The notes under the pieces: model-generated
Told to the model about the DNA's origin: nothing
Database searches by the model: none
Seen by the model: the letters and a program-made list of their open reading frames with translations, nothing else
Translations under genes and position numbers: made by a program
Assembly (NCBI RefSeq): GCF_000189635.1
Contig: NW_002475930.1
Span: forward strand, 62,001 to 126,000
DNA from: Tetrahymena thermophila SB210
Taxonomy: Eukaryota; Ciliophora; Oligohymenophorea; Hymenostomatida; Tetrahymenidae
Length of the DNA: 64,000 nucleotides
Direction: 5' to 3'
Part shown: in pieces, positions 106-63,845 of the stretch
Layout of the letters: each line of letters opens with the position of its first letter
How positions within the stretch are numbered: position 1 is the stretch's first letter

Positions 106-2278
106 GGATAGCGAAGGAAATCATATTCCTGTGGTTGAAAAGAAAGGAATGATAGGTACTGCTAGATATGCAAGTATCAATGCTCACTAAGGACTTGAAC
201 AATCGAGAAGAGATGATTTAGAAGCTCTTGGATATGTTTTACTTTATTTCATTAGAGGAAAACTTCCATGGTAGCAAATATACGCAGAGACAAAAGATGA
301 AAAATATGAGAAAATAAAAAACATGAAAATGAATTATCCTCTCGAGCAATTATGTGAAGGATGCCCAAACGAACTAGTGTAGTATCTAAGAATGGTCAAA
401 AAGCTTGAATTCACTGAGCAGCCAAATTATGCAGCACTAAAAGCCCTATTCAAAAAGGTTATTACTGATAAAAAACTAGAAATCCAGTCTTAAAATGTTG
501 ACTGGGAAAACTTGCCAGACTATCGCCATCGCAAAAAATTTCAAACACCCCAAGATCTCCCTTAACAGACAAGCCAGAAGGAAATAGCATCGCGACAGTA
601 ATAGCTACGGCAATAGTAGCAGTTATTTTAATAGCAATAATCTTTATAAAAGCTCCAATCTAAAGAATTATTGAATTAAAATAACGCTGGTGGAGCAGGA
701 GGTCCTGCTGGAGGGGGAGAAATAACAGAAAACAAAAAGGTATAGAAAATTACTTCGTAAAATAATATTCCAAGCGCTTTGTAAAATAATGAAAAACAAA
801 ACTAAAACAATCAAAAAGCTACCATTCAAACAGAAAATATCCATAATTCTCATAGCAAATAAAATATAGACCATAAAAAATAATCAATTTTATAATAATA
901 ATAATAATAACAATAATAATAACAATAACAACTATAATAACAATAATAATAACAATAATAAACATAATAAAGTAACAATTATCAAGCCTCGGCTTCATAA
1001 GAATTTTCTAAATAACTTTAAAGCCAAAATCAAATTGGTAACATTAATAATATATCACCTCCTGGTGGGCCATAAAAGAATACAAGCTTAGTTAATGCTT
1101 TGCACTCACCTGAAACAGGAAAATTTGGAGGAGAATCAAAAACTAATGCAATTAATGACAGTGCTTTGGAAAAAAATATAAATAATGAAAAAAATAGCAA
1201 AAATGCTGGAAGCACTTTGGTTAATATTATAAACTAAAATGGAAATCATCAACAAGGTTCGAATAATTAAATTAATAATAGAGAAGTCAGTGTTAGTATC
1301 TTAAATAATCATCCTAATTTCTAGCTTAATTCTTCACAAAATAATTCTATTAATGGATTACAACATTCTAACAATAGTCCTGTAAACAATCCTAATAGCA
1401 GTACTCTTATCGGAAACGGTTTGCATGAAAAACGTAACAGCTTTTTACATGCAATTAATTAAATGCATGGAAACAGTAATAATCTATTAACTGTACCAAC
1501 AAAAGATGTAGCTTCATTATCTGTCACATCGATAACCGGAACTAGTAAATTGAATAATTACTCAGGATCTGATAGCGATGATATAGTAGATGAAGGGGGT
1601 ATTCAATTCTCAGGAGACATGATTAATAAGAATGCAAGCCCTTTGACGACTTCAGATATTAGAAAAGACATTAGAACAAGAAGTCTTGTTATTAGATAAA
1701 GTCAACTGGACATTGGTGAGCTAGATTTGAATAGATTTCATGACCATAGCTCAAGCTAAAGCAAGAAAGTGCATCAAGTGGGTAACTCTATGAATCATCA
1801 GTAAAATGGCTATTCACACTCAGCCTTAGATAACTATGTAAAGCATGAAGAAAATTATGATGATAGAGGTAATTTTCATCAGCATAGTGAGTAAATTTCC
1901 CCAAGAAGGCAAACGAATGGCAAAAAATCTTCACAACAACATAATGAAAATAATTCAAAGTAAAGCTAAACAACTTCAAGCCAAAAGATGCAAAACTAAG
2001 GTATGTTTAACAGTGGAAACTCATATAAGCAATATGCCTCTGCAGAAGAAATAAAAGAACATTAAGATGAGGAAAACAATAGCAACACAAGAAATATAAA
2101 AAACTACAAAACTCAATTTACACCAATTACAGAAGTCAAAGAATCAACTTACAAATCTTTCAAAACCAAAACTTCTAAGGCATCCTTCATAGGAGAAAAC
2201 ATTACAGAATCGTTATATGATTATCCTATAATGATTAATATCATGCCAATAAAAAGAGCATTCTTAAAGAAAAATTGA
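106..2278 (+). CDS. Casein kinase 1-type protein kinase, 3' exon (partial)
   Basis: The last exon of a CK1-family Ser/Thr kinase gene, 723 residues visible; the N-lobe is upstream. Its first ~145 residues read through the CK1 C-lobe: GTARYASINAHQG is the CK1 signature in which SIN replaces the usual APE, followed by EQSRRDDLEALGYVLLYF, GKLPWQ and ENLPDYR. The remaining ~570 residues are a low-complexity tail rich in Gln, Asn and Ser, with a long Gln run and a basic C-terminus. CK1 enzymes phosphorylate acidic or pre-phosphorylated Ser/Thr sites, and their tails usually control localisation or autoinhibition. Dozens of in-frame TAA/TAG codons must be Gln for the frame to hold; the first TGA closes it. 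The family call is firm; substrates cannot be told. Confidence 0.93.
893..961 (+). repeat. TAA/CAA microsatellite coding for poly-glutamine
   Basis: In the kinase frame this trinucleotide repeat reads as about 22 Gln and one Leu, mostly TAA with some CAA. It lies in the C-terminal tail, well past the catalytic domain. A second Gln-rich run just upstream mixes CAG, CAA, TAA and TAG. Confidence 0.9.
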
Positions 2279-3950
2279 GATATTATTTTAATTGAAAAAA
2301 CCAAAATTTTTATATTGCAAAAATTAATTATTAACCACCACCAATAAATTTAAACATAATTTTAATAAAACCAATTTAAATATTTGTCCATAAAGTAAAC
2401 TTACTTTCTCTTATAAGTTAAACAAACAAACAAACAAACAATCCAAAATATTCTAATTTGAAAAATAATATCTTAATCAAATTTGAGATAATTTATCTTC
2501 CAAAATATATCAAAATATTTAAAGTTCTTTTGACTAAAAATATTAATTTTAACTAAATTTTACAAATTAGCTATTTTAAAATAATTTGCCTATTTAAAAA
2601 AACAGGACGACTATCTCTCATACTCATTGTATCAATCAATCAATCAATCAATAAATCCATAAACTACTTTCTAAATTTCTGCACTAAAATGAATAGAATG
2701 CTTGCTTACAAAAAATATTTACAAATAGTTAAAAAAATACAAAATAAAAAAAGTGAAGATAAAAAACTAATTAAACAAACAATGAATAATAAAGATATAA
2801 TATTAATAATAATAATAACAAATTTAAAATAAACAATTACCTAACTTTATATAACAACATCTTAAACTGTGAAATTAATAGTTTAGAATTCTTATTTTTA
2901 AATATAAAAATTTAAAATAAAAATCTATTCTGAAACAAAACACTTTAAACTTTATTTAATTTTAATACGAAATATATTTAGAAAGAAAAGTAATTACTCA
3001 ATTTCTTTATTCTTTTTATTAGCAATTAAACAAATAATATAAATTTATTTCACATATGCTTCATTTAATTTAATCAAAATATATTTTATTATGTCCTCTT
3101 TTATTATTATGTATTATATATATCTATCTATCTTTCTATTAACAAACATTTTCTTTTACAATAATGACACTTTATTATTATAAACCTGCTCTCAAATAAT
3201 ATGAAATATATTTCTATCCATAAATAAATTTCTTAAAAAAAGCGTTGGACTTTGTTAATTTTATAGATTAATCAAAATATAAATTTTAAAATCTATAGAA
3301 TGATGTTACTTACTTAAGAATTTAACTTACAATATTTAATTTTTATTTATTTATTTAATTAATTACTATATTTTTATCATAAAAATAAATTTTAATTTAG
3401 CTCGAATTTGGTTTGAAATATTTATCGTGCATGTGTGTGTTAGAAAATTTAACGAAAGAAATATCTGAAAATTTTAATCTTTGGTTTGAAAGAATTATTT
3501 TTATTTACTATGAATTAATTTATTCTAAATTGTATCATATGATACACACTTGAACACACTTTTATTTTATGAAGCAATTTTAATTGATAATATTTTTATT
3601 TTTAAATTATTTAGATTTTTTGAACTAAAGTATTATCATTTAATAAATAAAATAGCTATTTATATCGATTTTACTAGGGGAAAATAATTCTTACTTTTTA
3701 TAAATTTAATTAATTAATTTAGAGTTACTACTAAAAATTAGTAAGATTATTTTAGTTTTTTTATTATAGAAAATAATCATTTAAAATATTTAACAACATT
3801 TATGAAGCCATAAACTAACTTCTTTTCTTCAAATGAATATTTATTAGCTTTATTTTATGTTAAAATTAAAAAAATTTATTTATGTACAATAGATACAATA
3901 CTAGTGTTGGGAAAAACAAATAAACAAGCAATTCTTTATTGGGATAGTAA

Positions 3951-4007
3951 AATAAGGAGGAGGGAAAAAATTAAAAATAAAATTTACTTCTTTCTCCCTC
4001 CTTTATT
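3951..4007. repeat. Imperfect polypurine/polypyrimidine inverted repeat
   Basis: AATAAGGAGGAGGGAAAA at 3951 is nearly the reverse complement of the pyrimidine-rich arm at 3988-4007, with a 17-nt AT-rich loop. It stands out in an otherwise featureless spacer. No gene or RNA can be assigned. Confidence 0.6.
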
Positions 4008-5323
4008 CAAGATACAAGAGTATTTAAGGTATTATTTAAAATTTATAAAATCTATGAATATTTAATTCTTATTTGATCTTAATAAAAATAATAAATCTCT
4101 TGTTAAATAAATTCCTTCCAAAACATTAAATGGAAATTTATAAAAGCCTTTATATACTTTTTACTAATTATTTTATAAAAGTATTTATAAACACTCAAAA
4201 CCAAACCAGTAATGTACTTTGAATTATTTACAAAAAATGAATTATATAAGCTGTCTAATTACTACTTAGCAACAAAGTATAGATGATGACTTATTTCACA
4301 AACAAGTATAATACTATCACTCAAAACCTGAAATTTACTTAGGTCCGTTTGTAAAAAATTTAATATATTAATACTTAATAACAAACATTAGAAATTTATT
4401 TCTTTAAATGCATGTTTTTTAATTTTATAAAGACAATATTAATCTATTTGCATATTTAATATGATATTATGATATTAGTTAATCTCTATATCTATTAGAA
4501 AATAAACATTTTTAATTTTTTATAGATATTTATAACGTTTTTGTTGTTATAGTAGCATATTTCTTAAATTCAGAAGAGACGCAGTGTAAAATTGGCTAGG
4601 TTTTAAATATATCATCAATCAATTTTATTTTAGTTTTGTTTTAATCGTCGAATTATTAAAGAAAAGCATAAGTAAAAATACAAAATTCAATAAATAATAT
4701 TTGACCTCAAATAATGTTACAGTATATTAACTCTATGAAATTAATTATTTTATGTGAATAATTACTAGATTAAAATAATATTATAGCATTCGTTAAATTA
4801 TTTGTATGTAAAATAAACATACTTTTTTATAAAAAACCGTAAAATTATGTTATAGTTTATTTGATTTGGGATATCCAATTTGTCAGTTTATTTTGGGTTA
4901 GAACAAAAAAAATTTTTTTCTATCTTAAATAATGTTACTTGTAAATATATTAAATATCTAATTAATTACATTCAAAAGCAAGTAAGAAAAGATGTTTTAC
5001 ATCATTCTAGTATTTAAAATTCTTTAATTATTTTAAGCATTTTCTATTTAATTTTATTACATTTTTAACTTACAGACTTTGGTTGTATATTGCCTGAATT
5101 TTTTTAATTCACGATAAAAAATTATCAAAATAAAATTAAAATTTTTGATAAATATATAAAGGAATAGATAGGTTTATTAATATGATAATCACTTTGAGAG
5201 CAGTATTTTTTTGCCAAATATTCATATAATAATATAGTTTATTAAAAACATCATCGATTTCCTTTTTATTTTAATCGAATTTTTATACCCTGATAAATAA
5301 ATCAAGAAAAATATGTCAAATAA

Positions 5324-5359
5324 AAACAAACAAACAAACAAACAAACAAACAAACAAAA
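5324..5359. repeat. (AAAC)n tetranucleotide repeat
   Basis: About eight tandem copies of a CAAA/AAAC unit in the spacer. Similar shorter tracts occur at 2418-2441, 31998-32018 and, as TTTG, 34512-34532. Confidence 0.9.
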
Positions 5360-7434
5360 CATTTCAAAATCTTTCGTCAAAAGTTTAAAATATTTTTAAA
5401 ATAAATTAATTTGATTTATTTTAGTAACTTCTTTTTGAATAAAAGAGTTGGAACTAAATAAAAATGTTTTTGAATCTAAAAATAGTTTATTCTAGAATTA
5501 AGATAAAATACATGAATTACTGAGAAAAAAAAAGCTTACATTTAATCAATTCAAATAAAATTTTTTTTGTTTGAATAAAACTAGATTTTATTCTAGAAAG
5601 AGTATTTTTTATTGAAATATTAAAAAAATTTTAGAAATTAATTGAAGTTTTTTCAATTCAAAAATTATTTTTTAAAAAAATGAGATTTTGTTTTCAATTT
5701 TAATAATGGCAGACAGACAGAGAGTATGTATTTATTCTTTTTGAAGGTTCTTTATTTTTATAAAAGATATTGCAAATCCAAAGTAATTTTAATTACAACT
5801 AATTAATTAATTTGTATTTTAAAAAAGTTGTCTCCTCCAAATTACAATTTCTACATTATTTATATAAAAATTATTTAATAACTCTTTGTATATTAACTAA
5901 CTAACTAACAAGTTAAATAAATAAGGGAAGAAACAACTAAATCTAATTTACAAATTATTGAAAGTAACAAATTTAATTTCAAAGAAGATGATACAATTCT
6001 TTAAAAAATTCTTTTTATTGATTTTTTTGAAAGTAAGTAACATTTTATCTTAAAGAAATAATAATAAATTTAGCATAATTTTAGATTTTTAGTTAATTGA
6101 CTTTAATTTTTTTTTCTAAAGAATATCTCTAAAGAATCGTCTTATTGATTTATAATTTGGATACATCTACAATAGTCCATTCCATATATATTAAACTAAT
6201 ATTTGCTTGTAGTTTCAATTAATTTTATAAATCTTTAAAAAAGTTATACTTTTTAATATTTATAATCTAAATTTGATAAAATTTATATAACTTACAAAGA
6301 TTTTTTATAACTGGAAAATCCCATTTTCTTAATTTTTATTTTTAATTTTTTTGGATTTTATAAATTTTAAAGCTAAGTTGCTTTAATTTTTTAGTAAAAT
6401 GTTGGTGATCAGCTCGCAAAATAGAAAATAGATGAAAATTTATAGATTCATGACTAAAAAATAATAATAAATTCTATTTTTTATTGAAAAAATCAGCAAA
6501 TTTGTTCACATTTAACAAGGAGATAATTGAGTAGAAATAATTAAATGGTTCAAAAAGCTATTAAAAAGTACATTATTGTATTTAAAAACTATATTAATCA
6601 AATAAATTATATTTTAACAATAAATAAGTCTAAGATTCAAACTGGAGACTAAATATCTTAACAATTCTCTTTTCAAAGAGTCTACAAAAATATCACTTAT
6701 TTGAATGTGTGCTTAAAAATAAATTAAATACATGGGATTAAATGAAAAATAAATAATTTACAAAAAGTAATGCAAAGTCTATATTGTAGTAAAGAATGCG
6801 TTACAAAGAAAGAATGGGGAAAGAAAAAAGAAAAAAAAAATATTGAAATTTATTATTATTGAAGACAAAATTTAATTAATATCTTAGGATAATTAAATCC
6901 TATGATTTTTAATCAAAAGAAATTTATTGTTTGTTTTACTGCTATTTTTAAAACTTTGGTATTACAATTTGTTAAAGCGCATGTAAATAGAAAGCTAGTC
7001 TGTTTGCTACTAATTGCGCAAACAAACAAAGAAACAAATGAATAAATAAATTAATTAATTAATTAATTTATTAGTTTTGGTAAATTCTTTTTGTTTATAA
7101 CACTTGTATTTCTAATATTTTCTTTCTTATTGGGGAACAAATGATTTATGAATGAATATTCAATCATGTTACAATCAATCTCATTTTATAATAAATTAAA
7201 TTAGTAAAAAAATATTATTTTTGAAAAACAAGCTGAGAAATTAAATAACATAATAAATAAAAACATTCATTTTTCGAATTCATTAAACAGAATATTGAAT
7301 TAAAAAAATTTATTTACAATTCAAGTCATATTTTTTTAATTTAGAAGGAAGTTTAAACTCTAAATAATTTTAGAGAGGATCTTTAATATTACACTAAAAA
7401 CAATAAGAGTTATAACTCATTTGGAGGAAAGATA

Positions 7435-20991: not shown

Positions 20992-22364
20992 TCAATTTAA
21001 ATCTCTAAGGTATAATACTACATTTTATTAGCCATTAGCTTCAAAGCTTAACTTTGGACGAATGTAAAGATTAAAATAGCAGCTTGAATATTCATCAAGG
21101 TTTTCCTTCCTTAAACTATCTTCTAGATCTTTGTTTTCTACTACTGTTGAAATAGTTTAGTAATTTACATCTTGAAATGTAATTCTTAAGGGATATTCAT
21201 TAAGATAAGCAACTTCAATTAACATTTCAGTAAGAACTATCTCGTCAAAAAATCCCTTCATGTAATTCAGTTCGTTGATAGTAGAAAAGAATATCTGATC
21301 TCTTACAAATTCTAATTGATTTAGATCACTTGGGCTGATAAACACAGGATTTATCTCATATCTAGAAAAACCTATACTTTATAATTGAATTTCAGCTTAT
21401 TATTCAGCAAAAGAGGCAGAAATTTAACTCTAAGTTGAAAGCTAATTCTAAATATTTTGATAATCTATTTTGTAATTCATTAGGAGTATAACTTACTTAG
21501 CTTTTAATTAACTAAATTCATCAGAATTTCCCCATACTTTAGCTTTGAAAGACTATGAATTTCTATCAACTAAATGCAAATATGCAAAACAGTTTTATTC
21601 AGGATATTAAAAATTATCCAACTTTTGAATAGAATAATATTTCAAAACGCCTAAAATGTTATAGACTTTATGTACAATGTGTCTTTTTAAATCATATTAT
21701 ATTTCATGTAAATTAGATAACTGCAAGTTTGGATAAGACTTTATCTAGTCTGATTTCAAAGTTTAATTTTAATGCATATGAATAAGCCTTGGAGCTCCTT
21801 TTATAGTCTTTGCCTGTGAATATTACCTAATAAAAATATCATTCAAAAACAAATTAAAAACAAAGTCAATTAAATTTACTTAAATTCAAAAATGTCAGCC
21901 ATTTCAATCAATTATATTTCAAAAGCATATACTTAATCAGGCTATAGATTCTATGATATGAAATCAAAACTTACATCAGGGACTTATTATGTATAAAGAA
22001 TTAGATTTAAAACTTATAATTCTCCTTCCTCATTAATTACTAATAAGTTTAAAATCTGATAAATATCTTTCTCAATTACTCCTATAACTCTTATAAAGCG
22101 TGCCTTTAAATAAAGCAAATTTGATTCGCCATTGGTTTATTTAACACTCTTATTCTAACCTATCAAAAAAATCTAATTTTATGGATCTATCAAAGAGCCT
22201 GGCTCATCAATATCAAAAATATAGAATGAGCAACATTAGCATTACTCAATTTGTTTTAAGCACTATTCAGAATATCCATTTTAAATATCTTGCTTTTTAT
22301 TCTAAACAGGGTTTTATGAAAATTGCATATAGTTTCTACCAGCGTAATGATATGTTTGATACAT
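20992..22364 (-). CDS. OB-fold protein, RPA70-like
   Basis: Predicted 439 aa in two exons, 22364-21880 and 21826-20992, with a 53-nt phase-2 intron. An in-frame TGA just downstream of a false intron candidate shows that the first exon reads continuously through 21880. Residues ~205-320 resemble the second ssDNA-binding OB fold of replication protein A large subunit: an LSNLHEIQYDLKRHIVHKV lead-in, then strands ending in YLHLVDRNSQSFKAKVWG and a VILLMNYKIDYQ strand. The N-terminal ~200 residues look like another OB fold, with a Cys-rich patch near residue 35-47 (CLKQIEQCQCC). The protein is shorter than a full RPA1 and shows no C-terminal zinc ribbon. A role in single-stranded DNA binding (replication, repair, meiosis or telomere) is inferred from the fold only; the family call is moderate. 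Confidence 0.72.
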
Positions 22365-26447: not shown

Positions 26448-29400
26448 TCAGAAAGAATCATTTTTAGAAAAGGTGAGGAATAATTAAACAAATCTTTTTA
26501 ATTTCTAAAGTTTCTTAGAGAACTTATTATAGTTGCATCCTTACATACCATCTATACTGTATTTCAGTTTATATTAAAATATTTAATAAAAAATTATTCA
26601 AATTTAAAGTTTGTTTTGTAAAAAGTCCAGTTTTTTTGAAAATTGTTTAAAAATGTCAATTAATTTTTAAATTAAAAACTTATTTTTATTTTTAAGTTAA
26701 AAAGAAAACAAAAGTAATAAAAATAAATTATTTTTACTCAAGATTGAGAGTCAAAGTCTTAAGATTAATACAATTCGCTAAATCTTCTATAAATTAATAG
26801 CAATAATAAGTATCGTAGGAGGAATCGGAGCTTTATCAATAAAATTAAGATTTATTTAAAAATTATGAAAAATAAATTCTTCAAATTATAGTTTAAGTAA
26901 TTTTAAAATTAAAATATTTTATTGATTAAATAATTAGGTAATTTAGTTGAGTTATTGCTAAAAAATAATTTAAATTATGCTTCAATCATAACTATTATAC
27001 CTTACTCCTAATTCCAAATATTCAAGGCTAATTATTTGAGTCAAACAAGAAAATAAGTAATGTGATTCTTATAAATTAATTTCATTATTTCTATTAAATT
27101 TAATTATAAATTATTATAAATCATATACCAGAAAAAGAATTTATAAATTAATAAATAATTGTTATCATTAATAAAATAATAATAACAATTAACAAACAAT
27201 AAATTAAATTATTAATAATTTTTACCTCAAATCTAGTGATAAGTTTCTCAGATTTTAGCACTTAATTAAACCCAAATATAAATTTTGTACTCCTTTGCTC
27301 TTAATGTAATTATTACTTTATTTTTATTAAATTTATTTTAAAGATATTTAATTAAAATCTATTTGCTTTCAATTATAAATAAATTATCAATTAATTAAAA
27401 AAATTAAAAATTTAAAATAAAAAATATTTTACCTTATATTAATTTTCAAAACATAAATATTAGTTAACTATGTTAAAACAAATCCTAAAGATGATGCCCC
27501 TTAATCATCAATATTATTAAATCTTTATTATTTTTAAATAAATTAGATCGTTGATGAATCAAGTTGTTAAGTTTAATTAAGATTAAAAATTAGATTTAAA
27601 TCAGAATTTTTGAATTTTAAAATTTTAAAAAAAACAAAAAAATAACTAACTGTTTATTATTTAAGGAGAATGGTTAATTTTTATTATTTTTCACTTAAAA
27701 AGCTTAAACTTTAACATAAAAAATGTTTAAATATTTACTCAAGATCAAGAGATAAAAACGAAAGATTAGTACAACGAGCCAACAATGAATATAAATATGA
27801 TAATTGTTCTTCAAAATTTTAATTATATCTACAAATAAATTTATTATTAAATTAGCATTTAGATTGAAAAAAGAAGTTTAACAAAATTTCATGAATAAAA
27901 AATTGTCATTTTAAGAATAAATCAGCATTAAGCAAGGATAAGGTAATTTCTATTTACTTTAAGAAAAATGTCAAAGAAGTGAGATTTAAACAATTTTATT
28001 CATCAGAAAAGAAACTCATTTCATAATTTATTCTACTAAAACTATAAAATTATATTTTAAATTTAAAATCGATTTATTACAAATAATTTTTTTTTAAATT
28101 AAGTAGAAAAAATCAAATATTAGCTAATAAAAGCTTGAAGATATTTTTACTCTAGAATGAATGTTAAGGTAGTAAGTTTAGAAGCTTTTGATATTATTGA
28201 TCCTAAAAGAGACACATTTTGTATTGAATCAAATCTTTTAATGTATAAGTTTAATTAAAATTTTTTATAATTAATATTTTATAAAATTAATCTAGGATTT
28301 AAATTTAGTATACAAAGTCACATTTGATTATGATAAGTCGAGAGTTAAAGTTGTAAGCTTAGTTACACTTGACAAAGAAGTATACAAATTTAATGCACCT
28401 TCGCCTTCTATTTAATTATTCCTATAAGATATAAATTAATAAATCTTTAAACTAAAAAATAGATATTTACCATTAGTTCTCGATAATTTGAACAAAAAAA
28501 CGAATTAATTAAAATTTAAAAAAATAATATGAGTTATCGAAAACCAATATTTATTTATGAATAATTAATTTAATAAAGTCAATTTATAGTACATTTAATT
28601 TATTAAATTATTTTAAGAAAAATAAATATAGTCCTAAAAATTTATTAAACTAATTTACTTTAAAATTAGTTCCAAAATTGAGAGATGGATACAATTTGAT
28701 AATTGTAAACCTAAAACTGAAGCTCCACCATCGCCTATCCAATTAGATCTTTTATTATATATTTTTTAAATAATAAATTAAAAATATTAATAAAAAGAAG
28801 AAAAAATTAAAAAATATTATGGCAAAAAAAAATCTCTTAGAACTAAAATTTTCGAAATGTTTTGGAGTAAGTTTATGATTAAGACCAATAAAAAAAATGA
28901 AATATTTAACTGAAAGTTATATTTACTCTAATATTAATGTTAAGACAGAAAGATTTGAACACATCTTTAAAGGAGAGACTAAATCAGAAACACCATATTC
29001 TCCAATATCGTTACAGCTTTAAAAATAATCAATTTTAAAATAATTAAAGCACTTAGATATAGAAAAATGAAATTCATAAACTAATATAAATAGGATACTA
29101 AATTAATCTTTCTTTTATTCAAATAATTTAAGTAAAATAAATATAGATAAGATAAAAGTTTTAATCTAATGAACGAAGAATAATTTAATATACGATAAAT
29201 CTAGCTTTAAATTTTAGAGATTAATACAATTTGCTAACTAAGAGCCTAAGTCGGATGCACCTTTTGCTTCAATTTCATTATAGCTAAAATCAAAATAAGT
29301 TAAAAAGACAAATATTTATTTTATTTATTTTTAAATAAAAAAATTGATAATTTTTCAAAAAATAAATATTTCATTTTAATTATCAAAAAATAGTTAAAGA

Positions 29401-30189
29401 AAGAAAGAATTAATTAATTCATTTTTAATTAAAGAAAATAATTTAAATTTAATAATTTCGAAGAAATAATTATAAATTATTCCATTTTATAGCTGCTTAA
29501 CTAACATAAATGAGTTATTTTTACCACAACAAAAGTTCCAAGTTCTATAATTTAGGACACTTAGATAATGCAGAACTTATAGCTAAGACACCTTATTATT
29601 TAATGCTGTTAGATCTTTTTATATATTTAAGTTTATTTAATATAATAGTTTAAGAATAAAATAAAGATTATTGTCTGTCTCATTAATATTTTTATTTTTT
29701 TAAATTATTTTTGAGTTTTTTTGAATTTTATTTAATTATAAAAAAGCATAAAAATTAATTTTCATAAAATTAAAATTAATTTACTCTAAGTTTAGATTCA
29801 AAGTTTAGAGGTTAGAGCATTTTAGAAAAGCAGATCCTAACTATTAAGCTTCTTATATCCCTATTTAATTTCGCCTTTTATTAAATTAAATATTCATTTT
29901 ATTTCAATAATTAGAAAATAGTAATATTATAGAAAATAAATAGTTTAATAAAGAAAGATATTTAAAAAAATTTTCTAATAGAATTTTTTTAATTTCATTC
30001 ATAAAATATTCAAAAAAATAAAATTATTATATCAAAAAATTGCAATAAAATATTATAATATGAATTAAAATAAAATCTAATTTAATTTTATGATAAATAT
30101 TTTTACAGCAGGACAATTTACAAATTGGTATGAGACTATAAATCAGAGCTTACAAACTTTTTTTATAAAATGAATATATAATTATTCAT
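26448..30189 (-). CDS. Leucine-rich-repeat protein with one repeat per 90-nt exon
   Basis: A 15-exon gene. Exons: 30189-30107, 29874-29785, 29614-29525, 29283-29194, 29016-28927, 28748-28659, 28421-28314, 28234-28151, 28041-27958, 27828-27739, 27522-27433, 27315-27226, 27090-27006 (doubtful), 26830-26738, 26556-26448. Eight internal exons are exactly 90 nt, two are 84, one 93 and one 108. Introns are 79-241 nt, donors GTAAAx or GTATAx, all phase 2. Each internal exon encodes one ~30-aa RNI/RanGAP-like repeat of the form YNxIxxxGAxxLxxxLxxCxxLxxLxLxL, for example YNEIEAKGASDLGSQLANC. The ATG follows an in-frame TGA; the last exon ends ...LQKLKRFVQLFL...F then TGA. Without exon 13 the protein has 426 aa. 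The solenoid should bind proteins; the partner is unknown. Exon arrays of 90 nt and phase 2 are known from young LRR genes of Tetrahymena. Confidence 0.88.
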
Positions 30190-33100
30190 TAAGAATTAAA
30201 ATATTCAATTACTTCTTTTAGGTTATTATAATACTAATTTTATTCTATCATTTTTTTTTTTATGCAATAACTTTGTAATTAATTTATCAAAAAATTTTTT
30301 AAAAAATATAATAATCTTTTTGTGTCTAAAAGCTTGTGAAATTAATTAATTAATTAATAAATTAAAAACAAATTATCAATTATTAATAAAATTTAAGATT
30401 ATAATCAAGATATTCTATATATTTTAATAGAAATGTATAATCTATTTTTTTTATTGATATAAATAAAAAATTATTATTTTGAATAAAACATTTGAAATCT
30501 ATTTAATAATATTTTTTAATATTTCAAAATATTAAATTAAAATAATAAGATTATGATTGATTGATTGATACTGGATAAAAATCATTCATATATCATATTT
30601 GAGATTTGCAAAAAATTTATATAAAAAGTAAAAAATAAGTTCAACTAAGATTAGTTATAATTTATAAAATACTTTATGATTTTTATATGCTAACAGAAAT
30701 CTATATGTTTTCTATCTATTAATTAAATTCAAAATAAGAATATGCACATTTTGATTACTTTTAAAGATATTCCATTTTTGTTTCAAGCTTTTTACAGTAT
30801 TTTAAATCATAAATATCCTTAAAATTTGTGAATAAAGGAAGTCATTTAATTTTTAAAAAAATACTCCATCACAAAAATATAGAATTTAGTAAATAAATAT
30901 CTATCTCTAATCTATTATAAGAATTTATATAGTTTAAATATTTTAGTTAAAAAAAAAAACAAATAAAAAGCGGCGTAATTATATTAAATAATGCAAAAGA
31001 ATCAAGTAAAAAGCTAAATTAAATGTTAACTAAAATTAGATTTAAAGGCATGTTAAATAAATTAAAAGAAAAATAATATAAAATGTTAGACTCATGAAGG
31101 GTTGGCTGTAAATAAATAATTACTGAGTTTTGTGAATAGAAAAATAAATAAAGTTAGAAATTATTTAATTAGCATAAATAAATATTTTACTGGATTCTTT
31201 AAATTTACACTAAAATTAGAACTAAATTCACATTTAGGCATCTAAAATAGGTCTATAATCATAAAATTTGTTTATAGCCAGTAAGTAACATTGCACATTT
31301 AATTTTTAATAATTGGTCAAGTAAATCTTTAAAATTATTTAATTATGATTTCAAATGTTTACAGCTTACTTACAAATATTTCTAATGACTATTCATTAAA
31401 AGATTATACATAAACGTTACATAACTAATTAATTAATAATTAATTTACATGTTTATTCTCATCACTGGACATATAGTTAAGAAAAAAATAAGAAAGAGAG
31501 AGTAATAGACATCAAATAAATTTTTCTTTTTTAGACTAAATCTTATTTTTTCAAATAAATTTATTAAAGTCAAATAGAAATCCTACCCTCTCAATAAAAT
31601 ATAATAATTTGAGCCTTAATTATTTTGTAATCTGTTTAAGTCAGTAAGAAAGAAATTATTTCATCAAAAATCTAACTAAGTTAAAAGAATTCTTCCAATA
31701 AATTATTATTAATGAGTTTATTTTCTATTTTGTTAATTTTTCCTTAAAAATTAACATAAAATTCAAGTGTACTAGTGAATTTTTGTAAAATTTATTTGCT
31801 AAATAGAACTTTTTAGGAATGAAATCGCATTAATATTTTTCACACAAAATTAGTTATCATTAAATAATTGATTTGATTCGGGTACAAAAATTAAGTTAGG
31901 GTATTACAATATATTATTAGATGCATTCTTTCACATATGAGTTTTATGTATGTACTGTACTGTACTAATAAATTAAAAATTTCTATTTAGAAACACAGTA
32001 AACAAACAAACAAACAAAAAAGGTTTTGAAATATAAATTTACTTGCTAAAAACTAAATGTAAACAATATACTACTATTTTTTTTAAAGAAAGTTTCATGC
32101 TAAGCAAATTCTTTTTGATTAATAATTTACAAAAGCAAAAAAAATAATATCTTTCTTTACCCCTAAATTTGGAAATTTGGAGAAGAAATTTATTTTAATA
32201 AAATTTTTTTAATAAAACAATACAAATTTAATTTGCAATTACTTGCTTAAATGAAAGGCTCAATCTAAAAAATACACATTTTTTCACTTCTATTTTTAAA
32301 TCTCATTTTTGATTGAAAATTCTTTTTTCAGAAATTCTTCTACTTTCAATAATCAAATTGACTAGCTAAATCTAAAGGCTATAGTCTTTTTAAAATCTTA
32401 ATTTGTTTATCAAATGATAATATGACTAATTTAATTAGAAGTGTGCTGATGATTTTTCAAAATTATTTATTTATTTATTTATTTTTAAAATGCATATATA
32501 ATATTAATGTGAACTGATTAAATCCTTTTTTTCTTTGCATTTAGTTCTTTCTCTCTAATTTTCTTTTTTAATGAATGTTTTTGTGAGAAATTAAAGACTT
32601 TTTCTTCATTTGGAAAATTTTGGTATTATTTGCAGCCACGAATTTTCTCACTTAAAATTGGGAAAAAACTTGATTTAGAAAATTAAATGAAATTGTGTAG
32701 ATTAGGTTTCAAATTAGAAATTGAATAAGAAAATCAATTAATTTATGTAAGAATGAGAGATTGATTGATTGATTTAGTGGGTGAATGAATGAATGAAAAC
32801 CAACTAGATACATACATAGATAGATAGATTTTTAAGTATTAAAAATGCAATTAATTTTTTTTATAAAAAATTTGTAAATATTATTAAAATTGTCTATACT
32901 TGTGTGTAATGTATATATTGAATGAATATTTTTATAAAAATTTCTTATTAACTATTTTAATAGACAGAATAGTTGTGATGTTATAAGTGTGTGTTTAGTT
33001 TGTAATGTTTAAGTGTTTTTGTTATGTTATGATATGATATGCTTTTTTATGTTTATTAAAAGTAGATAATTATAAAAAGTGAATTTTTTGTTCTTATTTT

Positions 33101-62117: not shown

Positions 62118-63845
62118 TCAGTTAATATATTGCTTAACAAATTCCAAAAGGGCATAACCATTTGAGTGTTAAGAAACATAAAGCTGTGGGTGAGTTTATT
62201 ATTGATGTGAATTAGCCCATTATATAAGCTATTGCTCACTATTCGAGACACATATAGAGAAATTTGCTAACTTTAGCATTCCATCATCATTCATTGTGTC
62301 TCCAAAAGCAGCAATAACAATATCATTATCTTGCTTATTGATGAGTATATCTTCATATTTGAATTATTTGCTTTTTATTTATTAGGCCTTATTTTGTATG
62401 AACTCTAGCTACTCGCTCATATTGCGTTTTTACTCCTCTAGAAGTCTTTGCTGACCTGTTAAATCATCCTTAAATATTATTTTCTAATTTCTCATTTATA
62501 TGTAAGGGTAATAAACTTTATGAAGGAGATACTCAAGAGCCAGCCCTTTATCAGTAATTTAAGGTACTATTTCAACATGCATCAGATTTTACTTTTCCCT
62601 AATTACTGCATTAAACCCTATGCCTATTTCATTAAGTTCTTACTCTATTTATTTAAACTCATTCTCTCTCTCATAAAATACACTAATTTCGCTATTGTAT
62701 CTTAGAGACCATACTTCAGGATCATTCCTAACTTTAAATTTCAACCAACTTGATAACTTTTGCATCTTTTCAAATATTATTTATGGTTACCAAATCTTAG
62801 CTAGCTCCATTAGCCATTACTTATCTAGATACAATATACCTTTTGTATAGTCTTTCAAATAAATATATGAACCACATCTACCTATATAGTAATCAGGCAT
62901 AATTAAACTCTCTCTTTTCATCAAGAGATTAAAAGGGTGGATTCCTCTTCCTGAGTTATATATCAATTTACAGGATTTATCAAACCAAAAGTATTTAATC
63001 CAGTACTTCATGAATTCAAGTGTTGCTTCAGGTTTACCACAAAGAGTACCACCTAGATCTGTTGTTATAATTAAGCTCTTTCTATTTGATCTCTATTCTA
63101 CTTCTATTAACTCTTAGTTATAGACTACTAACCTCTTTACATTATTATTTTAGTTGTTCTATCCCTCATCAACTTGATTATTTATATTATAATAGGGATT
63201 TTTAAATATGAGTTCTTTAAATTATTCTGATGATTAATCTACATGATTAATTATTACTTATTCTTTTTATTGGCATGGTTTTACTTCATATTTATCTTAC
63301 TATTTCTAGGTAGAGCTTTCTTATTAATTATTTTAGACTTAGTTCTATGAAAAAACAACTAAATTGCCTTTTTATTGGTTTATTTCATCTAAAATTACCT
63401 CTTAGTTATTTTAAACAATTTGTTTCGCTTGTAAATCATCTTAATTTGCTTTAATGCTTAGTTGAGTGTCTGTAGAATTTATATTTTTGTTTTCTACATG
63501 TTTTATTTATATGAATTAGCAATTGGACTGTAAGTAACCTTTATAAACATTGAATGCTCTTTTAGTTCTTTTCATTTCCTATGAGTTGATCAGCTATTTC
63601 TGCTCATTATCTTCTTTAATTTATTCTAAAATAAATGGAGGTTTATGATTAACTAAGTTTTCTGCATTAAACTACACACTTTCATCATAAGTAGAAGGTA
63701 AACATTAAAAATCAAAATAATATAATATGACAGAATATTGGTTTTATTGCATGCTGATTGAGACATTAGTTGACCTGTTTAAATTTTATTCTTTTTGATT
63801 TTCTAATGGAAACTTCAATTCATTTATAATAACGTTGTTGTCCAT
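62118..63845 (-). CDS. HAD-superfamily phosphatase-like protein (sucrose-phosphatase/Cof type)
   Basis: Single exon, 575 aa; an in-frame TGA directly precedes the start ATG. Residues 1-255 are a Gln/Asn-rich extension with no known domain. Residues 256-575 are a HAD hydrolase with a type-II-like cap: motif I IITTDLGGTL (259-268), motif II YNSGR (296-300), the motif III lysine in ITDKGLALEYL (430-440), and motif IV FGDTMNDDGM (514-523). The spacing and the VEIVPQITDKG block fit the sucrose-6-phosphate-phosphatase/Cof branch, which removes phosphate from sugar phosphates. Motif I normally reads DxD, but the second Asp, the usual general acid/base, is Gly265 here, so activity may be reduced or changed. 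Substrate unknown. Confidence 0.88.

Follow-up and report, generated by a model that had tools for sequence, protein, structure and literature searches.

How did a gene of Tetrahymena thermophila come to be built from a row of short, frame-neutral exons that encode leucine-rich repeats (LRRs), and is that gene still whole? The row lies in a 64,000-nucleotide stretch of DNA, here called the window, which spans positions 62001-126000 of a contig of 333,252 bases in the 101-Mb genome; the contig is a chromosome and carries telomere repeats at either end (CCCCAA and GGGGTT). A telomerase reading frame elsewhere in the genome agrees fully with residues 405-506 and 507-640 of PDB chain 6d6v, a T. 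thermophila protein, the two stretches lying on either side of an intron. Read with the ciliate code, the LRR gene was modelled on the minus strand from an ATG at 30189 to a TGA that ends at 26448, as 15 exons (a first, 13 internal and a last) comprising 1371 nt and 456 codons. The initial annotation had given 26448-30189 as the limits of the gene and left its strand unnamed; these limits fit our start and stop codons, and its fourteen exons plus a doubtful one compare with our 15, among which exon 7 (E7) is doubtful. Exon lengths in order were 83, five times 90, 108, 84, 84, four times 90, 93 and 109 nt (TGA included), and intron lengths were 232, 170, 241, 177, 178, 237, 79, 109, 129, 216, 117, 135, 170 and 181 nt. 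At the borders of the model, all 14 introns are predicted to run from GT to AG and to be of phase 2, the phase that had been claimed. The 3′ splice sites read AAAG or TAG, with ACAG before E15, and resemble those of a family sample in which AAAG is the rule. GC content was 26.5% in the coding sequence and 12.4% in introns.

Genes of this type have been described in T. thermophila (Xiong 2019, PMC6564038): their exons are exactly 90 bp long and carry one LRR each, their introns are in phase 2, and they form arrays of three or more. By its sequence the present gene is of this published kind, which confirms the attribution to a gene type known from Tetrahymena. To score its exons we built a family profile on 20 other loci of the genome. 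These supplied 266 distinct exons that lie between AG and GT, measure exactly 90 nt and have eight or more of ten key LRR residues; none of them belongs to the gene studied, but the 20 loci were found with an E4-E6 query. Searched on both strands of the window, the profile gave 11 hits of at least 8 bits, all inside the LRR gene and on its strand, and none in five shuffled sequences (one strand each). With length (75-111) and phase left free, all 13 internal exons scored above zero; outside the gene, the two strands of the window offered 13,188 open AG..GT candidates of the same length range and any phase, none of which did. The shuffles and the rest of the window thus rule out chance exons. 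A plus-strand gene is ruled out as well, the profile having no plus-strand match in the window. Before its end the model contains no in-frame TGA, compared with 10 and 17 in the other two forward frames, and 5000 dinucleotide shuffles gave 10.2 TGA on average and never zero, a result that is inflated because exon borders were chosen open. Pfam returned LRR_6 only for the model (7.6e-8; 32.3 bits, cut-off 23.4). Of 20 neighbouring open frames, scanned as contiguous frames and so with the chance of overlooking spliced genes, two matched Pfam at E ≤0.01, and one of these matches fell short of its cut-off. These were an open frame at 20992-21852 (minus strand), with a weak POT1 match (E 0.0039; 17.4 bits, cut-off 29), and another at 62118-63845 (minus strand), with sucrose-phosphatase-like and HAD hydrolase domains (E 3.3e-28).

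Nine of the 13 internal exons (E2-E6 and E10-E13) are predicted to be exactly 90 nt, preceded by AG and followed by GT, so that the array of LRR exons stands and the earlier count of eight such exons rises by one. Their profile scores, all on the minus strand, were 41.5 bits for E2 (29785-29874, with AAAG before and GTAA after), 34.4 for E3 (29525-29614), 75.3 for E4 (29194-29283), 43.0 for E5 (28927-29016), 49.0 for E6 (28659-28748), 36.1 for E10 (27739-27828), 30.8 for E11 (27433-27522), 36.5 for E12 (27226-27315) and 8.5 for E13 (27001-27090). The other internal exons are E7 (108 nt), E8 (28151-28234, 84 nt, 5.5 bits), E9 (27958-28041, 84 nt, 4.7 bits) and E14 (26738-26830, 93 nt, 13.7 bits). 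One full repeat per exon, as first described, is found in E2-E7 and E10-E12; the repeat is degenerate in E8, E9, E13 and the first half of E14. E7 was modelled at 28314-28421 around an LRR core at 28421-28332 that scored 36.8 bits: at the normal 90-nt end the donor is AT, not GT, and the next in-phase GT is at 28313. In a scan of unrestricted length, a 100-nt version that breaks phase outscored the 108-nt version (23.8 vs 19.8 bits), and E7 is therefore a doubtful exon. Upstream of it, intron 6 contains a near-palindrome at 28547-28629, with two 40-nt arms that are 78% complementary and 3 nt apart.

The last exon (E15, 26448-26556, with the TGA stop) contains KLQKLKRFV, weakly like the family terminal peptide KCLKSKRLV. 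Compared with 19 family terminal peptides it reached a best score of 34; since 18 of 500 shuffles scored as high, homology of the last exon is weak. A looser peptide set gave 49 against at most 44, but that set was picked by a motif to which the gene's own peptide conforms, and we did not rely on it.

Omission of any single internal exon left the frame open to the end (13/13 cases), in keeping with the initial claim that exons can drop out without a break of frame. Three of the 14 introns (all within 26557-30106) could also be retained with the frame open to the end, because TGA is the only stop. Frame-neutral exons might serve regulated skipping and so provide many LRR isoforms, as has been proposed for brown algal ROCO genes. 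The 13 tolerated single skips and an E7 without a canonical donor at its normal end would suit such a use, but the LRR gene itself bears no sign of it, the main text of PMC6564038 does not contain the term 'alternative splicing', and a literature search that combined these terms turned up nothing but a Paramecium paper. We consider regulated skipping most improbable here.

The start of the gene departs from that of its relatives. E1 (30107-30189, minus strand, 83 nt) opens the LRR frame, and the end of its peptide, QKKFVSSDLQSHTNLQIVL, is similar to first exons of the family, e.g., QKKFLSSSLLSHQVLSINL. Using the motif KK..S..S on fetched loci, we found 16 other first exons in the genome; their peptide approximates MIQQIKYY.KLEEVIINFFINILQIYINQQKKFLSSSLLSHQVLHINL and is followed by a donor in phase 2, which in most cases is GTATAT. 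KK stands at a distance of 90 from the ATG in 13 of these 16 and of 89 in the LRR gene. Both halves of the family first exon are recognizable in the latter but stand in different frames. Alignment with the 16 others places the start half at 30186-30251 on the minus strand, where it now forms a separate short open reading frame of an ATG, 21 codons and a TGA; ATG 30251 and its A-rich lead are conserved. With the first exon one base short, this family start reads only 21 codons, MIEQNQYYNNLKEVIEYFNSQ, and then meets the TGA at 30188-30186, which overlaps ATG 30189. The latter is therefore a secondary start inside the first exon: the start first annotated at 30189 does open the LRR frame, but it lies within a frameshifted conserved exon and is not the start used by the family. 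The frame from the conserved ATG is intact in 14 of the 16 other first exons, including that at 4043 in locus L021 (in-frame M). The remaining two, L017:7422 (plus strand) and L021:308 (minus strand), carry frameshifts, and no ATG in frame with KK was found ahead of it; first-exon damage therefore recurs in the family. Family first-exon and last-exon peptides were also seen near 1125 and 5587, respectively, within L035 (about 1035-5680, plus strand), near the left telomere of C439; this pair probably marks another family LRR gene on the same chromosome.

Might the frameshift be an assembly error, with the gene starting normally at 30251? In favour of an error, it amounts to one net base in a very AT-rich stretch, and the start ATG and A-rich lead are conserved. 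The same stretch, however, shows substitutions and gaps on both sides relative to the other first exons, as real drift would give, and we regard an assembly error as unlikely. If the frameshift is genuine, the gene could still be expressed from a start that has moved downstream, its modular exons keeping a decaying gene alive. The old first-exon start would then drive the 21-codon reading frame. Because the stop of this frame overlaps the new ATG (ATGA), the LRR protein would need reinitiation or leaky scanning, and the phase-2 array would allow worn exons, E7 among them, to be skipped. We give little credence to this combination.

A recent pseudogene would offer another account of the same features: a once-normal array would have lost its start frame and the E7 donor and would make no LRR protein now. 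The base missing between ATG and KK, AT in place of GT at the E7 donor, the low scores of E8, E9 and E13 and the frameshifts in 2 of the 16 other first exons would all agree with such a loss. Set against it are the in-frame ATG at 30189, which opens the LRR frame, and the 13 internal exons, all open as modelled. Under neutral decay, the chance of finding zero TGA was calculated as 0.07 at 0.1 changes per site and 0.005 at 0.2 (for borders chosen open); any loss would therefore be recent. Over 290 codons of ten exons, omega was 0.137 relative to the nearest family exons and 0.125 relative to the consensus, values that average the whole history and say nothing of present selection on the LRR gene; omega = 1 was rejected with likelihood ratios of 76 and 83, respectively. 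E13 alone did not differ from neutral (ratio 0.4). Identities at codon positions 1, 2 and 3 (of 29) were 19, 18 and 17 for E10, 19, 18 and 18 for E11, and 11, 17 and 17 for E13, i.e., little or no excess at positions 1 and 2 in these three exons. Low omega and the absence of in-frame TGA together suggest that the LRR array was probably under constraint for much of its life. That it has lately become a pseudogene is a possibility we take seriously while tending to doubt it.

According to the initial annotation, this locus had clearly grown by tandem duplication of exons. Within the LRR gene, the best match of an exon was 49-56 of 90 bases, compared with 50-69 among the 266 exons of other genes, and for 10 of 10 exons compared an exon from another gene was equal to or better than the match within the gene. 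Most exons are thus no closer to their own gene than to others, and a clear case of tandem duplication is not supported. On average, exons of the gene shared 46.8 of 90 bases with one another and 51.3 with family exons, a sample that is young and near consensus, which favours the family side. With numbers matched, nine randomly drawn family exons reached the gene's own best in at least 89% of draws for 7 of 10 exons. They did so in only 26%, 16% and 13% of draws for E5, E13 and E7, which speaks for growth on the spot, as do the uniform 2-2 phase and the head-to-tail order of the array. Of the 266 family exons themselves, 52% had their nearest exon in another fetched locus. DNA matches linked E4 and E14 to many contigs, E6 to several and E11 to two; those of E6 reached 68-71% with intron sequence included, and those of E14 covered its second half plus intron at 71-82%.

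An exon tree of 90 rows did not group the gene's exons; it showed seven label changes, a number as low in only 4 of 500 shuffles, and one clade for these exons was not rejected (AU p 0.34). Clustering beyond that of most shuffles favours growth on the spot, although long branches, for which the program issued a warning, can cluster by themselves. With 90 columns and no starred fork, the order of duplications is beyond the resolution of this tree. Alignments among the gene's own introns were hardly more frequent on the same strand (19 hits, best 42.8 bits) than on opposite strands (16 hits, best 34.6 bits), a further point against tandem duplication. E-values of intron BLAST searches were useless at 12% GC because shuffled introns hit as often as real ones (197-474 vs 358 hits). 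The matches of introns 5 and 11 to family introns were strongly biased in strand (89:2 and 95:5), and this bias hints that the two introns may be akin to them. The pairwise comparison of exons and introns that had been proposed for ordering the duplications was thus made and gave no order. Tandem exon duplication on the spot keeps some appeal in the light of the phase, the tree and three exons, and we hold it as a minority reading.

In the search for paralogues, 40 of 490 DNA candidates were scored and no recent whole-gene duplicate appeared among them; the next best match by E-value was 71% over about 200 bases. Protein queries with E8-E11 and E12-E15 gave 33 and 14 matches. The best non-self ones were C205:64764-64928 (53% over 55 residues, E 4.2e-9), which spans the E10/E11 junction with no intron there, and one in C309 (31%, E 7e-5). 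At C54:83981-84508, C270:469413-470404 and C112:25349-27934 of G000, up to three repeats occur per open frame; the 30-residue unit therefore also exists without an intron at each repeat. Local duplication and import or shuffling from other genes are both possible origins, as either fits the LRR array. Judging by the exon similarities and the published family, we propose that LRR genes gained repeats and exchanged them with one another through unequal or ectopic recombination within introns, a process without cost in frame because every unit is of phase 2-2.

The LRR gene also differs from the sampled arrays in ways that bear on its age. Median intron length was 173.5 nt (n = 14), compared with 253.5 nt in sampled relatives (n = 230; p 2e-7), and 1 of 14 introns measured 240-270 nt, as against 147 of 230; introns of the sampled arrays peak near 255 nt. 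Internal exons contained 26.9% GC, compared with 33.9% in the 266 family exons, and CTT accounted for 14% of leucine codons, compared with 30%. In a fixed 90-nt comparison, nine of ten exons or cores scored below the fifth percentile of the family, the exception being E4 (75.3 bits; family 5-95% range, 63-96); the family sample was taken from good matches and is weighted towards young arrays. According to PMC6564038, group III genes are the youngest, with introns near 257 bp and raised GC, and group II genes have introns near 56 bp and GC near the coding background (about 27%). The group III traits are absent from the LRR gene; its coding GC of 26.5% fits group II, but its introns of 79-241 nt do not. 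Going by the description in that paper, and not by masking with its eight T. thermophila consensus repeats, we place the gene between groups II and III.

Taken together, the LRR gene looks like an aged family member. The best explanation overall, which we hold with good confidence, is that it is an old, worn member of the T. thermophila family of LRR genes with 90-bp exons. It would have left the young pool long ago and then worn down, the signs of wear being its shorter introns, lower GC, degenerate E8, E9, E13 and E14, missing E7 donor and exon 1 frameshift. PMC6564038 reports that exons are scrambled between loci and proposes an 'intron length cycle', in which this worn gene would be a useful intermediate between young arrays (introns of about 257) and old ones (about 56). 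It may also indicate which parts wear first: the frame of exon 1, a donor and bits of some repeats. The conserved family first exon, recognizable in many loci, should help annotation.

The predicted 456-residue protein consists almost entirely of LRRs. Thirteen solved sequences matched it with E no higher than 0.1 (lowest, 1.8e-7), under names that included 'Leucine-rich repeat protein', 'Kinase domain protein' (8th8) and Ran GTPase-activating protein. We would expect a ribonuclease-inhibitor-like solenoid fold, free of additional effector domains, and a protein that is probably soluble and acts through partners bound on the inner surface of the solenoid. The family may recognize bacteria or their products, as suggested in PMC6564038.

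How does this locus compare with known systems? Gene type, exon length and phase bias are already in print, and the LRR gene is an ordinary locus of a known kind. The main text of PMC6564038 (supplements aside) contains none of the terms 'first exon', 'last exon', 'N-terminal', 'pseudogene', 'alternative splicing' and 'frameshift'; the frameshifted conserved first exon and the missing E7 donor, both as predicted here, are new points on the LRR gene, as are the data that speak against a clear-cut tandem duplication on the spot. It shares with the family described there the 90-bp LRR exons, the phase-2 introns and the array, and introns of our sampled arrays peak at about 255, compared with about 257 in that paper. 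It is unlike the young arrays in its introns of 79-241, its low GC and its four internal exons that are not 90 nt, and unlike the published kind in its frameshifted first exon and missing E7 donor. Beyond ciliates, to go by published descriptions, rice LRR-kinase genes (PMC3050792) likewise have short phase-2 exons with one LRR each, for which duplication and shuffling have been proposed, but their units are of 72 nt and they encode receptor kinases. Brown algal ROCO genes (PMC11378527), likened by description, also carry one LRR per phase-2 exon (72 bp there) and undergo exon shuffling, whereas they encode LRR-ROC-COR proteins with reported alternative splicing. Finally, gonadotrophin receptor genes, as described in PMC11378527, resemble the LRR gene in having LRR exons of similar size and phase-2 introns, and differ from it in encoding animal membrane receptors.
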